Virus record (IMG/VR): IMGVR_UViG_3300042007_000120
Span: 1-43,601 of that record
Length of the DNA: 43,601 bases
Source: a virus
Strand: one strand, 5' to 3'
A program made the translations under genes and the position numbers. Shown one piece after another: positions 8,219 to 14,288 of the stretch. Every line of letters starts with the position of its first letter. The first letter of the stretch is position 1. Under the pieces are notes generated by a model. That model was given only the letters and a program-made list of their open reading frames with translations. It was not told where the DNA came from and searched no databases.

Positions 8219-8666
8219 TGGAGGCGTTCCGTTCCATGCTCAGTTTGTTCTCCGCCGCCGGGGTCAGCCCGTACTCGGCGCACCAGCTGCGGAACTCCTG
8301 CCCGTACTCCCTCTCAATCCGCACCCACGAGGCGGTGACCACGCCTTGGCTGTTCTTCGTCAGCAGCCCGTACTGGCGGCGCTGCCGCACCGCCTGCCGC
8401 CACACCGCGAAGACCTCGCAGGCGATTTCGAGGCTGGCCTGATCCAGCGGCTTCAAAATCCCCACCGTGCTCATCTGCTCCACGATGTGGTCCCAGAGGG
8501 CACTGGCGTCGGGGGACATGTCGCGGGGCTTCTGCAGCGCCCCGCGGTTGAACGGGATGTCGGGGGGCACCAGACGGCCGCCCGAATCGCGGCCGGGCCC
8601 GGTGCCCGCCAACAGCTTCAGATTCCGTGGTGCCGCCTTCCTGCCCTTACTCGCCGTCGCCGCCAT
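8178..8666 (-). CDS. terS: Terminase small subunit, P27-like
   Basis: 162 aa from ATG 8666, which lies nine bases after GGAGG; an ATG six bases earlier (8672) is also possible. It recognises the packaging site and loads the large subunit. The N-terminus (GRKAAPRNLKLLAGTGPGRD) is basic and matches the start of P27-family small terminases, followed by helices (LDQASLEIACEVFAVWRQAV). It overlaps both neighbours and precedes the large subunit. Confidence 0.88.
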   Translation of the reverse strand: MAATASKGRKAAPRNLKLLAGTGPGRDSGGRLVPPDIPFNRGALQKPRDMSPDASALWDHIVEQMSTVGILKPLDQASLEIACEVFAVWRQAVRQRRQYGLLTKNSQGVVTASWVRIEREYGQEFRSWCAEYGLTPAAENKLSMERNASNVGQEAISSNPFA

Positions 8667-10119
8667 CGCCATTCACCTCCACCGCATCCAGCGCTTCGAG
8701 GCTGGCCTGCGTCTCCACACCGCTCATCCGCGCCGCCGCCGCCCGCCTATCGCCCTTCAGGAAAACCAGCACGTCCTGATGGGTGCGGCAGAGGGCGCGG
8801 GTGGCGGTGAACGCCCGGGCGGCACGCAGCCGGGCGGTGCCGATGGCGGTGATGAGCATGGCGTCGTTCTCCAGCCACAGCCCCGCCTCGTGCGCGGCGC
8901 GGACCATGAGGGAACGCATGTCCATCAGGTGCCCCGCCTTGTTGCGGACAGCGCCGACGATGAACACCGCGTAGCTGTTCGGCCGCAGCCGCCCGGCCGC
9001 GTGGCGGATGTTCTCGACCATCGCGGCCTCGAAGTCGCCATGGGAGAGGTTGGACAGGTCCCGGGGGTCGTCGCTGTACACCTCTAGGTCGTAGTACGGC
9101 GGGCAGCCCAAAATCATGTCGAACGCCTCGGCGGGCAGCTGTTGCAGCTGCTCGGACGATTCGCCGACGATCCACTCAGGGGCAGGCTCCCCGGCGATGG
9201 CGAGCTGCAGCCGGTTCGCCGCCACCTGTTCCTCCCGCAACTCGACCCCGGTGTAGGGGCGGCCGAGGCGGGAGGCGACGATGCCGCGGACGCTGCCGCC
9301 CGCCCACGGGTCGAGGACGTGGCCGCCGGGCGGGCAGTACCACCTGTACATCAGCTCAGTCAGCACAGGGTCGAAGATGCTGGTGCCGGTGCTGCCGTAC
9401 GGCAGCAGCCGGTCCCCGTGCTGCTCCACGATCTCCTTGTCGGTCAGCGCACGCCCCGCCGCGGCCTCCGCCTCGTTCTTCACCGGGTACCAGTTCGCGA
9501 ACTGGCTGGTCGGGGCGTCGTAGACGAGGTTCCCGTCCCGGCCGAGTTCTGATTGGATGCCGAGGTCCTTCCACGCCTGCTTCCGTGCCCGCCAAGGTCC
9601 CTGCCGGGCGTCGAGGACGGTGAAGGGCGGGGCACCGAAGCGCTCGGCCAGCGCCCCGTTCGACTGCGTGCCGCCCGGGGCGGTGCCTAGGGCATCCTGC
9701 GTCTCCCGTGCCATGCGTTCGAGGAACGATTCGTCGTACCCGGTGCCCGTCAGCTGCGGCAGGCTCTGCAACAGCTCCTGCAGCGCATCCTCGTCATAGA
9801 TCGCCAGATCGTTCGTCCGGTTATCGACGAGCACTATACGGGCCGCCTCATCATCGTCGACGTCGACGAAGGTGACGGCGATGGACTTCCAGCCCAGCAC
9901 GTCCCGCGCCGCCTTCAGCGTGTGGTTCCCGGCAAGGACCTCGTTGGTGCCTGCGCGGACGGTGATGGGCTTGTACTGGCCGTTAACCCGGAGGGATTCG
10001 GCGATGGCGTCCACGTCGCCGAGGCGCGGGTTCCGCCCGTAGTGCTGCAGCCCGTCGACGGGGACGATCAGCTTCTCCAGCGTGGAGTGAATGTTGTGTG
10101 TTTCGTGTGCAGTGTCCAT
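8647..10119 (-). CDS. ParB-domain DNA methyltransferase (N6/N4 type)
   Basis: 490 aa, ATG at 10119 with AAGGAA upstream. Residues about 1-110 are a ParB/Srx-like domain (PVDGLQHYGRNPRLGDVDAIAESL, then TNEVLAGNHTLKAA). The second half is an amino-methyltransferase with a SAM-binding loop DPWAGGSVRGIVA, the GVELREEQVAANR segment, and the catalytic CPPYYDLE motif (a DPPY-class variant with Cys first). Such ParB-MTase fusions are common next to phage terminase genes and probably modify phage DNA against host restriction. It is not the partition ParB. The upstream 133 bases are repeat-rich. Confidence 0.9.
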   Translation of the reverse strand: MDTAHETHNIHSTLEKLIVPVDGLQHYGRNPRLGDVDAIAESLRVNGQYKPITVRAGTNEVLAGNHTLKAARDVLGWKSIAVTFVDVDDDEAARIVLVDNRTNDLAIYDEDALQELLQSLPQLTGTGYDESFLERMARETQDALGTAPGGTQSNGALAERFGAPPFTVLDARQGPWRARKQAWKDLGIQSELGRDGNLVYDAPTSQFANWYPVKNEAEAAAGRALTDKEIVEQHGDRLLPYGSTGTSIFDPVLTELMYRWYCPPGGHVLDPWAGGSVRGIVASRLGRPYTGVELREEQVAANRLQLAIAGEPAPEWIVGESSEQLQQLPAEAFDMILGCPPYYDLEVYSDDPRDLSNLSHGDFEAAMVENIRHAAGRLRPNSYAVFIVGAVRNKAGHLMDMRSLMVRAAHEAGLWLENDAMLITAIGTARLRAARAFTATRALCRTHQDVLVFLKGDRRAAAARMSGVETQASLEALDAVEVNGDGGDGE

Positions 10120-11235: not shown

Positions 11236-11592
11236 TTAGTGGGGTGTTGGGGGCTTGTGGCTCTGCAGCCTTGTGCGGCGTTCTAAGGCGCTCTTTTCTC
11301 GGTGGTGGGTTCCACATAGGGTTTGCAGGTTTTCGTCGCTCAGAGCGGCTCCTGCGGACGCTACGGGGATGATGTGGTCGACCTCTAGGTCCTCGGTGCT
11401 GCCGCATACCCTGCAGGCTGGTTCCCTGCGTAGCTGCCGGGCGCGGATGGTGGTGCGTTGCCTGCCTGTGAGGGTGCGGGTGTTGGCGCTGGGGTTTTGC
11501 CAGGCTTTTCGTTGGTGCCGGTCGCACCTGCCGGTTGTGGTGATGGTCCCGCACCCGGGTTCTGTGCAGCGGGAGCCGGGTGCGGTGGGCAC
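11236..11592 (-). CDS. HNH endonuclease of the packaging region
   Basis: 118 aa, GTG at 11592 just after the 25-aa membrane peptide. A zinc-binding Cys set (CTEPGCG, then CRVCGSTEDL) precedes the nuclease core LEVDHIIPVASAGAALSDENLQTLCGTHHREKS, with the DH pair, Asn and HH of the HNH/beta-beta-alpha-metal fold. HNH genes right upstream of terminase genes are established in HK97-type cos phages, where they act with terminase in cos cleavage. That role is inferred here from location; free homing activity is the alternative. Confidence 0.88.
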   Translation of the reverse strand: MPTAPGSRCTEPGCGTITTTGRCDRHQRKAWQNPSANTRTLTGRQRTTIRARQLRREPACRVCGSTEDLEVDHIIPVASAGAALSDENLQTLCGTHHREKSALERRTRLQSHKPPTPH

Positions 11593-11594
11593 GG

Positions 11595-11672
11595 CTACCT
11601 GCGTACTGCGCCGATGAGGAGGGTGACGGCGATGATGAGTAGGAGGACGTTGGTGAGCAGCAGGGTGTCCAT
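11595..11672 (-). CDS. 25-aa hydrophobic membrane peptide
   Basis: ATG at 11672 preceded by GGAAGGG; stop TAG two bases before the HNH start. The peptide is nearly one transmembrane helix (LLLTNVLLLIIAVTLLIGAV) ending in RR. The good ribosome-binding site and tight spacing to the HNH gene argue that it is translated. Function is unknown; short membrane peptides in phage late operons may tune lysis or exclude other phages. Too short for family assignment. Confidence 0.55.
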   Translation of the reverse strand: MDTLLLTNVLLLIIAVTLLIGAVRR

Positions 11673-11704
11673 GGTGCGGCCCTTCCGGGTGTGGGGTGGG
11701 AATG

Positions 11705-11745
11705 GGGAAGGCCACCAGCGGTCTCAGGCTGGTGGCCTTCCCTTT
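11705..11745. terminator. Perfect hairpin upstream of the late operon
   Basis: GGGAAGGCCACCAGC (11705-11719) pairs perfectly with 11728-11742, with an eight-base loop and a short TTT on the plus side. The 15-bp stem lies directly upstream of the first late gene. It could stop transcription coming from the replication block or act as an antitermination target. The T-run is weak in both directions. Confidence 0.6.
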
Positions 11746-12080
11746 GGCGGGGCCTCCCCCGGGCTGGGGCGGGGTCCCTAGATGACGGTCAGGTCCGTCG
11801 TTATGTGCAGCACTTGCCATCCGAGAGGGGCTGCAGGGCGGGTCTGGGGCACGCCCATTGTGCCCCCAGCGTATCGCCGGTTGGTGGGGTTTGTGAAGGG
11901 GGGTTTAGTGTGGGGGTGTTCGACCCGCAGCTGGTGGAGCACGACACACAGGGGCCCCGGTCAGTGTTTGCTGCCGGGGCCCTGCCTATACTGGGGTGCG
12001 GCAGTGGCCGGGTTCGTTTTTCGGGAGTAGGGCGGACCCTTGACCCGCCGTCTAGCCGCCGGTCCCAAAGCGGCGGCTCC

Positions 12081-12113: not shown

Positions 12114-13184
12114 TTACGTTTGGTGGGCGTGGAGCATGGCGGTGAGGGCGGCCTGCGCCTGCAGGGGCACCACCCCGTCGCCGCAGACTTTGAGCTGCTG
12201 GTTGCGGGTGAGCCCTATGGCGGGGTCGGTGACCCACCCGTCGGGCAGCCCCATCATCCACTCGGTGAAGCGGGGGCTTAGGCGCTCTGCCCGTACCCGT
12301 CCAGTAGGCTCGGTTGGTCGTGGCGCGGGGCGGCCGGTGACGTGTTCCCATCTGCGGATGGCTTGGGTGTAGGGGCCCCAGTCTGTAGGAGGTGTTCCAC
12401 CTCGTCCGCCAGTGTCGGCCCGTGCCCGCCCGCTTTCCGTTTGTCGGGGTGCTGGGAGCCGCCGTTGCTGGCCAGTTGTGTCGTCGGGGTGCGCAGCAGC
12501 AGCCGTTCGCTGGGGTCCAGCCCCATCAGGGTCACTATCTGGTTGGTGAGGAAGACCTGCCCGGTGGTGAGCCTGCGGGCGACGCCCATGGTGTTCGACG
12601 GTTTCCGGCCTTCGGCCGCTACTGGTGTTTTGAGCAAGGAGGAAGACCCGGTATCGGGGGTGGCACGCCCCCACGTCGGCAGCGCGTAGGCCGCGCCATT
12701 GCGCGTCATACCCGAGGTCGGCCAGATCGCCGAGTACGCGACCGAGTGCTCGCAGAGCAGGCTGGCCTGCGTCCCGGGTATTTCCCATGCATCGCGGGCA
12801 CTGTTCCAGATTGCTATCGGCTCGGGCACTGTACGCTCCTCTGACGTTTTCCCAGACCACCCATTGGGGGCGGTGGGTTGCTATGGCTTCGCGCATCTGC
12901 ACCCACAGGTTTGAGCGGGTGCCTTCCGTCATGCCTGCCCGCTGCCCGGCGTGGGAGAGGTCTTGGCAGGGGGTGCCGCCGCTGATGATGTCGGGGCTGG
13001 GGATGGCCGCCCAGTCGATGGCGGTGATGTCCCCGTAGTTGGGGACGTGCGGGTAGTGGTGGGCGAGGATGCGGGCGGGTGCGGGGTCGTTTTCGCAGAA
13101 CCCGATGGTGGTGGCTCCGAGGGCGGCTTCGACGGCGAGGCCGAGGCCGTTGTACCCGGCGCAGAGTTCGAGGGTGGTCAGCAT
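12114..13184 (-). CDS. C5-cytosine DNA methyltransferase
   Basis: 356 aa, ATG at 13184. Conserved motifs are in order: SAM loop ELCAGYNGLGLAVEAALG (I), GFCENDPAPARIL (II), SGGTPCQDLSHAGQ with catalytic Cys (IV), WVVWENVRGAYS (VI), GACHPRYRVFLLAQ (VIII). The C-terminal part has RLSPRFTEWMMGLPDGWV and KVCGDGVVPLQA (motif X). Motif X normally reads GNGV; Asp replaces Asn here. The region between motifs VIII and X is Arg/Pro/His-rich and shares its DNA with a nested gene. It probably modifies phage DNA or blocks restriction. Confidence 0.92.
   Translation of the reverse strand: MLTTLELCAGYNGLGLAVEAALGATTIGFCENDPAPARILAHHYPHVPNYGDITAIDWAAIPSPDIISGGTPCQDLSHAGQRAGMTEGTRSNLWVQMREAIATHRPQWVVWENVRGAYSARADSNLEQCPRCMGNTRDAGQPALRALGRVLGDLADLGYDAQWRGLRAADVGACHPRYRVFLLAQNTSSGRRPETVEHHGRRPQAHHRAGLPHQPDSDPDGAGPQRTAAAAHPDDTTGQQRRLPAPRQTESGRARADTGGRGGTPPTDWGPYTQAIRRWEHVTGRPAPRPTEPTGRVRAERLSPRFTEWMMGLPDGWVTDPAIGLTRNQQLKVCGDGVVPLQAQAALTAMLHAHQT
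12278..12829 (-). CDS. Nested gene in a second frame of the methyltransferase (TP-repeat protein)
   Basis: 183 aa, GTG at 12829 preceded by GAGGAG with a six-base spacer, a strong site inside the methyltransferase coding region. The whole gene lies within that gene in another frame. The product looks like a real protein: IWPTSGMTRNGAAYALPTWG, LLKTPVAAEG and LLLRTPTTQLASNGG repeats, then QHPDKRKAGGHGPTLADEV. I recall similar LL(P/K)TP repeat proteins near phage cytosine methyltransferases, function unknown. The alternative is that such database entries are out-of-frame readings of methyltransferases. The strong ribosome-binding site favours true translation. Confidence 0.55.
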   Translation of the reverse strand: MPEPIAIWNSARDAWEIPGTQASLLCEHSVAYSAIWPTSGMTRNGAAYALPTWGRATPDTGSSSLLKTPVAAEGRKPSNTMGVARRLTTGQVFLTNQIVTLMGLDPSERLLLRTPTTQLASNGGSQHPDKRKAGGHGPTLADEVEHLLQTGAPTPKPSADGNTSPAAPRHDQPSLLDGYGQSA

Positions 13185-13186
13185 GG

Positions 13187-13786
13187 CTAGGCCCGCATGT
13201 TGGTGTTGAGCCATTCCCATTCGTGCAGCGGCCACGCCGGGCGGCCGCGCCACCAGAGGCCGCATTGGGCGGGGCTGGGGTTGCACCCGTCGTGTTCGCA
13301 GACGACGGCGGGCTGCTGGTGGTGTTCGGGCCCTATGAGGCGGATGCGGAGGCCGGGGCGGTGGCACCACGGGCAGTCGGTGCGGAGCAGCTGCCCGTCG
13401 GGGTTTTCGGCGAACTGTTCGGTCATGCGGGCGCGGATGCGGTGGATGGTGTGTTCGGCGCGGGCCTGCAGCAGTTCGGGGGTGTGGGGGTGGCGGGCGG
13501 TGATGTAGCGCAGCTGCGGCCCGGGGTGCTGCGTGGGTTTGGGGGGGTGTTCATCGAGGGTGTGGGCGATGGTGTTGGCGAGGTTGCGGGTGGTGGTGGT
13601 GATGCGGTGGATGAGGTCGAGGGTGTCGAGGTCGAGGGGGGCTGGTGTGGTGTCTTCTGCCGTGCTGGGCTGCCCGGGCCCGGTTTGTTGCCGCCATGGG
13701 CGGGGTGTGCCGGGTTCGCGGTAGTCGAGGAGGTCTGCCCAGCGGCGGATGATCCATTGGGCGTCGGCTGCGATGTCGTACCTCAT
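13187..13786 (-). CDS. Hypothetical protein with a C-terminal zinc-finger-like segment
   Basis: 199 aa, ATG at 13786 in an ATGA overlap with the 24-aa gene upstream. The N-terminus is helix-rich (ADAQWIIRRWADLLDY). The C-terminal third has CPWCHRPG and CEHDGCNPSPAQCG, two Cys pairs that could bind zinc, followed by WWRGRPAWPLHEWEWL. The DNA-binding or regulatory role often suggested for such proteins is only inference. It sits in the replication/modification operon before the C5 methyltransferase. Confidence 0.75.
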   Translation of the reverse strand: MRYDIAADAQWIIRRWADLLDYREPGTPRPWRQQTGPGQPSTAEDTTPAPLDLDTLDLIHRITTTTRNLANTIAHTLDEHPPKPTQHPGPQLRYITARHPHTPELLQARAEHTIHRIRARMTEQFAENPDGQLLRTDCPWCHRPGLRIRLIGPEHHQQPAVVCEHDGCNPSPAQCGLWWRGRPAWPLHEWEWLNTNMRA

Positions 13787-13857
13787 GGTGTGCCCCCGGT
13801 GGTGGTGACTTGGTGCGCCCACCGCTCGTCTTCGTACAGGTCAAGGTCCTCGTTCAC
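13783..13857 (-). CDS. 24-aa acidic peptide, translationally coupled
   Basis: GTG at 13857 overlaps the stop of the RusA-like gene (GTGA) and its own stop overlaps the next ATG (ATGA). It encodes a short acidic peptide starting VNEDLDLYEDERW. The double overlap keeps ribosomes engaged between two larger genes, so it may be only a coupling leader. No family is recognisable. Confidence 0.4.
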   Translation of the reverse strand: MNEDLDLYEDERWAHQVTTTGGTP

Positions 13858-14288
13858 AGCTGCCCCCGGGGGTGGATGGTGATGGTGCAGCCGGGCTCGC
13901 ACCCGACCGCCCAGTTCTTGGTCGCGTGCCATGCGACGATGCGGGCGTCGTCGGTGTACACGCCAGCGGTTTTGAGGGGGTCGCCGAGGGCGCGTTCGAG
14001 TTTGTCGAGGTCTGGGGTGCCTGCCGGGTAGTCCGGGTATCGGGTGGTTTTGGGGCGGGGCAGGTAGAAGTCGGCGTGGACGGCGAGGGGCCCGTCGTAG
14101 GGTTCCCAGCCGGGCCCGGCGGCGGCCCGGGCTGCGGTGATGATCGCGGCTTCCCATGCGGCGAGGTGTTTGGACATGGGGATGAGGCGGCCTTTGCCGA
14201 CGTGCCGCATGCTGCCTTTGGCTGCGGGGCGGCCGGGGATGTGGAAGGTGAGGGGCCCCTGCGGCTGCTCAGAAGGGTGGTTGGGCAT
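13854..14288 (-). CDS. rusA: RusA-like Holliday junction resolvase
   Basis: 144 aa, ATG at 14288. It should resolve branched replication and recombination DNA before packaging. The pattern FHIPGRPAAKGSMR at the N-terminus and the acidic cluster TPDLDKLERALGDPLKTAGVYTDDARIV match RusA: D-x-D-K then D, and a DD pair near the C-terminus. The length is close to the usual 120-145 aa. It lies with other replication genes on the minus strand. Confidence 0.87.
   Translation of the reverse strand: MPNHPSEQPQGPLTFHIPGRPAAKGSMRHVGKGRLIPMSKHLAAWEAAIITAARAAAGPGWEPYDGPLAVHADFYLPRPKTTRYPDYPAGTPDLDKLERALGDPLKTAGVYTDDARIVAWHATKNWAVGCEPGCTITIHPRGQL

Follow-up and report, generated by a model that had tools for sequence, protein, structure and literature searches.

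A conserved modular gene overprinted on a phage C5 cytosine methyltransferase gene and its probable role as a specificity chain

Introduction

Phage methyltransferases guard DNA from restriction, and their specificity decides which hosts a phage can enter. The C5 methyltransferases of the Bacillus phages SPbeta, phi3T and SPR reportedly carry tandem, exchangeable recognition modules of ~40 residues between motifs VIII and IX, as attributed to Trautner (1996) and Wilke (1988), titles listed among the references of PMC12707154 and PMC8936443. Lee et al., in 1995, are said to have found that the small gene of M.EcoHK31I is embedded in the large gene and read in a different frame. M.EcoHK31I consists of two polypeptides, a large chain with motifs I–VIII and X, which also contains the target-recognition domain (TRD), and a small chain with motif IX (PMC3404938). 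In M.AquI, the alpha chain carries motifs I–VIII, while the beta chain comprises the distal part of the variable region and motifs IX–X (PMC3404938). A different kind of overlap is known from phage ShiLan, where an out-of-frame HNH homing endonuclease ORF, patchy in its distribution, is inserted in an actinophage methylase gene (PMC11855218).

Here we analyze a C5 methyltransferase locus in a 43.6 kb virus record (IMGVR_UViG_3300042007_000120, 43,601 nucleotides; hereafter, the window), in which the methyltransferase chain is termed alpha and the product of an ORF nested within its gene is termed beta. Like M.EcoHK31I, the window combines an alpha with motifs I–VIII and X with a small nested gene that has its own start in another frame; in contrast to the published description of that enzyme, motifs IX and X both lie in alpha, beta has no catalytic motif, and the putative recognition modules belong to the nested chain, whereas the TRD of M.EcoHK31I is part of the large one. 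The window differs from M.AquI in keeping IX–X in alpha and in an overlap of ~550 bases that holds a conserved N-terminal domain of beta. With ShiLan it shares a hidden GTG-start ORF and a methylase frame that stays open, but the ShiLan ORF is a patchily distributed HNH insertion, and a Pfam search of beta matched no nuclease. M.EcoHK31I and M.AquI are thus the nearest precedents, and an arrangement with a nested chain devoid of catalytic motifs (type B below) fits neither. A literature search, with subscription journals outside its scope, found no description of this overprinting.

Results

Organization of the methyltransferase locus

The C5 cytosine methyltransferase ORF occupies positions 12114-13370 (−) in its longest form, which begins with a GTG at 13370. 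The true start is probably the ATG at 13184 (356 aa), located 2 bases past the stop codon of the preceding gene. Alpha matched the Pfam DNA_methylase profile (E = 1e-30) and PHROGs 363 and 116, and phmmer matched it to M.HhaI. The features of the locus are as follows:

12114..13184 (−): alpha, C5 cytosine methyltransferase, 356 aa from ATG 13184, with motifs I–VIII, a linker and motifs IX–X in a single frame
12837..13169 (−): alpha motifs I–VI (PCQ, ENV), profile match
12633..12836 (−): alpha motifs VI–VIII, both frames under selection; profile match and dual-frame test
12381..12632 (−): alpha linker, the out-of-frame reading of the beta modules; stop-free, with the protein unconserved in relatives
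12132..12380 (−): alpha motifs IX–X (RRWEHVTGRPAPRPTEP...LSPRFTEWMMGLPDGW...GDGVVP), profile match
12836..12842 (−): beta ribosome-binding site AGAGGAG, formed by AGA (Arg) and GGA (Gly), two codons of the ENVRG motif in alpha
12278..12829 (−): beta, nested ORF of 183 aa in the +1 frame with a GTG start at 12829, wholly within the methyltransferase ORF
12638..12829 (−): beta N-terminal domain, nestN (AIWNSARDAWE...YSAIWPTSGMTRNGAAYALPTW), by alignment; profile found in 89 of 91 loci
12500..12637 (−): beta module 1 (LLKTPVAAEGRKPSNTMGVARRLTTGQVFLTNQIVTLMGLDPSER), family C3, recurring in 13 loci
12386..12499 (−): beta module 2 (LLRTPTTQLASNGGSQHPDKRKAGGHGPTLADEVEHLL), family C1, recurring in 67 loci; nested frame selected
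12281..12385 (−): beta C-terminal tail, poorly conserved, with low pLDDT

The initial annotation had described a 183-codon ORF with a GTG start, a GAGGAG and a six-base spacer lying wholly inside the methyltransferase gene, and this ORF is present as claimed (start context CAGAGGAGCGTACA-GTG, with AGAGGAG followed by the 6-base spacer). The contrast in composition that it noted between the two frames reappears in the codon-position GC content: over 12650-12380, GC is 0.82–0.89 at methyltransferase position 1 and 0.47–0.51 at position 3, which makes the GC-rich position that of the nested frame, while outside this segment the GC-rich position is methyltransferase position 3 (0.96 upstream and 0.91 downstream). 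The overprinting reaches beyond the variable segment of the enzyme, where the initial annotation had placed it: the first ~64 codons of beta overlie the conserved motif VI–VIII part of alpha (12633-12836). For the sequence of the window taken alone, the open nested frame is not beyond chance, since all 183 nested codons stayed open in 16% of the trials in which the methyltransferase codons were shuffled synonymously (P = 0.16); it is the homologues that give it significance.

Genes for an HNH endonuclease and a RusA resolvase, at 11236-11820 (−) and 13854-14288 (−), flank the methyltransferase region. A 490-aa ORF at 8647-10119 (−) showed weak, below-cut-off matches to the ParB N-terminal domain and to N6/N4 DNA methylase, and is possibly a second methyltransferase of the same phage.

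Selection acts on both reading frames

Selection was assessed on 53 non-redundant loci (<85% nucleotide identity) against a null of synonymously shuffled alpha codons. Motifs I–VI and IX–X, which lie on the two sides of the tested segment in each gene, served as controls. Alpha relatives lacking nestN were unsuitable as a negative control, since they carry another conserved +1 ORF. Over motifs VI–VIII, the nested frame of the 53 loci contains no stop codons, where 40–42 were expected, whereas nested stops in the control regions occur at the expected number. BLOSUM similarity in the nested frame lies 35–48 z units above the null over VI–VIII and 3–4 units above it over I–VI and IX–X; the shuffled nulls ignore phylogeny, which the control regions share. 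Stop codons in the nested frame of homologues had been named in advance as an observation that would speak against an overlapping gene.

Individual codons reveal the same constraint. One alpha glycine is encoded by GGG in 53/53 loci, a choice forced by a single nested glycine. The arginine codon of the ENVR(G) motif is AGA in 12 of 31 loci, as compared to 18 of 861 arginine codons elsewhere (p = 2e-11), and the Ser-AGT that forms the GTG start accompanies AGA/AGG in 17/17 cases and other codons in 1/14 (p = 7e-8). Synonymous codon choice in alpha thus creates the internal ribosome site of beta.

The alpha frame is constrained as well. When nested codons were shuffled in 27 type B loci, 44 stops were expected in the variable region of alpha and none was found, while the third frame of the same loci contained 129 stops against 128 expected. 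Across the 42 copies of module C1, divergence is 0.14 at the first, 0.11 at the second and 0.49 at the third nested codon position, and this concentration at the third position indicates that the nested frame carries the protein; the mean identity of the module is 83% for the nested protein and 46% for the alpha reading. Read in the alpha frame, C1 contains stops in 5 of 12 type A copies and in none of 30 type B copies, suggesting that translation of alpha in type B loci proceeds across the modules and yields a linker without conservation. On this comparative evidence the nested ORF is a real gene under selection, as the initial annotation had proposed.

Distribution and arrangement of the nested gene

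A tblastn search with the nested protein returned 223 phage records, chiefly of actinophages, and among the matches listed nearly all named features were methylases or adjoining hypothetical proteins. Frames were mapped in 91 loci (10 phage loci, 80 IMG/VR loci and the window), most of them retrieved by likeness to the nested frame. The nestN profile (WPTSGMTRNG) was found in the +1 frame over alpha motifs VI–VIII in 89 of these loci, and the remaining two contain a diverged nestN copy.

Two arrangements predominate, with one mapped locus left unclassified. In type A (37 loci), beta comprises the N-terminal domain, the modules and motifs IX–X, all in the nested frame, and alpha stops shortly past VIII, which is the same split as in M.AquI. 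In type B, the commonest form (51 loci including the window), IX–X belong to alpha, whose frame has no interruption, and beta terminates upstream of IX–X or inside them. Cultured relatives include Arthrobacter phage Jinkies (type A) and Streptomyces phage Raleigh (type B), the latter with an alpha that contains no nestN peptide sequence. A scan of 84,980 prokaryote genomes with a profile built from four rows yielded 41 further loci from Actinomycetota, Pseudomonadota, Bacillota and Thermodesulfobacteriota, and the +1 overlap is present in every one of them. Twelve loci outside Actinomycetota, one of them on a plasmid, represent a third arrangement, type C, in which the nested frame encodes IX-like residues and motif X is part of alpha, so that the region before X looks conserved in both frames; the proteobacterial relatives of this type share the layout of M.EcoHK31I. 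The type C loci (L092, L095, L102, L103, L104, L113, L117, L118, L121, L128, L131 and L135) derive from Proteobacteria, a Bacillota MAG and a Mailhella MAG. On the alpha tree, type C forms one clade, and types A and B interchange ~9 times, with at least 4 of the changes forced.

The arrangement is widespread and largely unannotated. In public records of type B loci (L003, L004, L007, L010 and L093), beta is missing from the annotation, and in those of type A (L002, L005, L006, L008 and L009) the annotated start of the second methylase gene lies downstream of the nestN start, so the public N-termini are probably truncated. These late starts apparently serve to avoid an overlap with alpha.

Modular architecture of the nested protein

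The LxTP part of beta is an array of modules with a median length of 39 residues. A total of 277 modules fell into 79 families, 22 of which occur in at least three loci, and their order is mosaic; the array of the window reads C3 then C1. In none of 42 arrays was a module family present twice, where 12.0 such repeats were expected by shuffling, a result on which three tight clustering thresholds agreed (loose clustering chained families together and weakened the test). The absence of duplicates is expected if every module has its own target.

In the 37 type A loci, the nested frame follows the order nestN-modules-IX-X. In ~10 loci the nested ORF ends on a module boundary, and the remainder of the array follows in the alpha frame, directly before IX–X. 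Among these frame-switching arrays (L007, L016, L019, L028, L054, L073, L075, L078, L082, L086 and near-copies), the LxTP module that follows starts 9 bases past the last nested codon in nearly all cases. In L054, C1, the second module of the window, is encoded in the alpha frame between motifs VIII and IX. From their place in type A and L054, the modules sit at the position of a target-recognition domain. Some type B alphas carry in-frame modules; a search of the alpha linker of the window for an in-frame LxTP module found none. The mosaic arrays without repeats, which in type A and L054 lie between VIII and IX, may be counterparts of the recognition modules in the multispecific Bacillus phage enzymes, their role in DNA recognition being putative. 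Those enzymes consist of one chain in one frame, whereas here the modules lie in the nested frame or the array switches frame.

Both AlphaFold models, one for the beta of the window and one for a beta from a type A locus, were poor (mean pLDDT of 57 and 50). A PDB fold search with the type A model gave nothing below E = 0.001; its short, insignificant matches were chiefly C5 methyltransferases such as DNMT3/DRM. Searches of beta against Pfam and PDB produced no match. The PHROG 1008 (DNA methyltransferase) profile covers the nested protein with positions 71-208 and motifs IX–X with positions 199-320, two parts that in the window fall in separate frames and chains. The TP-repeat proteins that the initial annotation placed near phage methyltransferases do exist and belong to this same family.

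A +1 frame in Dcm-like methyltransferases

Because most loci had come through the nested frame, we checked for bias by searching with alpha motifs I–VI only. The four closest relatives found with this query outside the nested frame (59–77% identity) all have nestN and no nested stops. Another 70, more distant loci gave no nestN match, and those that were read belong to a Dcm-like family of phage C5 methyltransferases. This family has its own open +1 frame over VI–VIII, of ~150–165 aa and without TP modules, with a conserved product (SGKTSPVSC...DGILVPSSGRW.NSGMGSPTECWTLN...VPQRFFLS.KAC.GILRRAEKRGK). In 18 non-redundant loci (L140, L142, L144-L146, L149, L152, L153, L162, L172, L175, L184, L191, L193, L195, L199, L201 and L214) it contained no stops, as compared to 15.1 expected. 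A tblastn search with the Dcm-like +1 ORF returned 129 phage records, among them Vibrio, Escherichia, Streptococcus and Ruminococcus phages, and in the PHROG collection this ORF matched family 16143 (DNA methyltransferase). Profile comparison of its product with nestN did not find homology (probability 11%). The existence of this ORF makes it less certain that every overprinted partner is a specificity chain.

Discussion

Starting from our observations that both frames are coding, that the start site of beta is conserved, that beta is modular and that its modules have a defined position in relatives, we consider it probable that the locus encodes a two-chain C5 methyltransferase, in which a catalytic alpha is joined by an overprinted specificity chain beta whose two recognition modules act in trans. 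Alpha would provide the catalytic domain (I–VIII and IX–X), with a stop-free linker in the place where a monomeric enzyme has its TRD. Beta, predicted to consist of the N-terminal domain and two exchangeable recognition modules, would be translated in the +1 frame of the same mRNA from the internal start with its own ribosome-binding site. It may then bind alpha and supply target recognition in trans; with one site per module, the phage DNA would be modified at several sequences. A change of methyltransferase specificity, suggested in the initial annotation, is the mechanism best supported by the sequence comparisons, since relatives carry the TP modules at the target-recognition position. An action against host defence, the other possibility raised there, would here be no more than the general role that methyltransferases have in phages.

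Beta might instead be a real protein with another task, a regulator or a separate effector such as an inhibitor, a chaperone or an anti-restriction protein. Neither fold nor family searches on beta detected a TRD, the second C5 methyltransferase family, with its seemingly complete alpha, keeps a module-less +1 ORF at the same place, and in some type B loci alpha itself contains in-frame modules. This explanation is nevertheless unlikely, since the nested frame of type A holds the C-terminal half of the enzyme including IX–X, the same module families are found in alpha between VIII and IX, and the window alpha is devoid of an in-frame module. Programmed ribosomal frameshifting, joining both frames into one long enzyme, appears very unlikely: nestN is conserved from just past a start codon with its own ribosome-binding site and would be left untranslated by a late shift, the window would require two shifts, and the junctions inspected share no slippery sequence, even though the frames overlap by ~200 nt and a single +1 shift in type A would produce I-VIII-TRD-IX-X.

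The repeated switching between types A and B (~9 changes, at least 4 forced) could point to a decaying split gene, in which a frameshift moved IX–X to the other frame and left the nested ORF as a remnant; we find this highly improbable in view of type B being the commonest form, of selection keeping both frames open across divergent lineages (no alpha stops versus 44), and of the intact module 2 in the window. That a GC-rich gene leaves its other frame open by chance, with nested similarity echoing alpha conservation, agrees with the 16% of open shuffles but hardly with 0 stops against 40, with z of 35–48 against 3–4 in controls, or with a module C1 that is 83% identical in the nested protein and 46% in alpha, and is scarcely credible. 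Barring a strong phylogenetic artefact, the comparative tests refute it. A homing-type element with an out-of-frame endonuclease, like the ShiLan insertion (PMC11855218), carries practically no weight: both are out-of-frame GTG-start ORFs inside phage methylase genes whose host frame is open, but beta has no HNH or other nuclease match in Pfam, overlaps conserved motifs where an insertion would lie between conserved residues, and occurs in all sampled relatives without a patchy distribution.

Returning to the two-chain enzyme, we tentatively propose a broader picture, which we hold with less than even confidence: phage C5 methyltransferases may commonly overprint a +1 partner over VI–VIII. In the family described here, this partner would be a pure specificity chain of swappable cassettes, moved between frames by recombination at module boundaries, so that a multispecific enzyme could be rewired without touching its catalytic chain. 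The second, Dcm-like family, with its own partner, raises the possibility that such partners are general; its apparently complete chain and module-less +1 ORF also suggest that the function of overprinted partners may differ from providing a TRD.

Overall, the locus offers an example of a widespread natural situation, in which the same conserved DNA encodes one protein in each of two frames. Among the phage records that we read, beta was unannotated in all type B loci and started too late in most of type A. Should beta prove to be the specificity chain, the part responsible for choosing the target would be absent or truncated in many annotated phage “DNA methylases”, and the modular recognition code of these enzymes could be readable by methylome sequencing.
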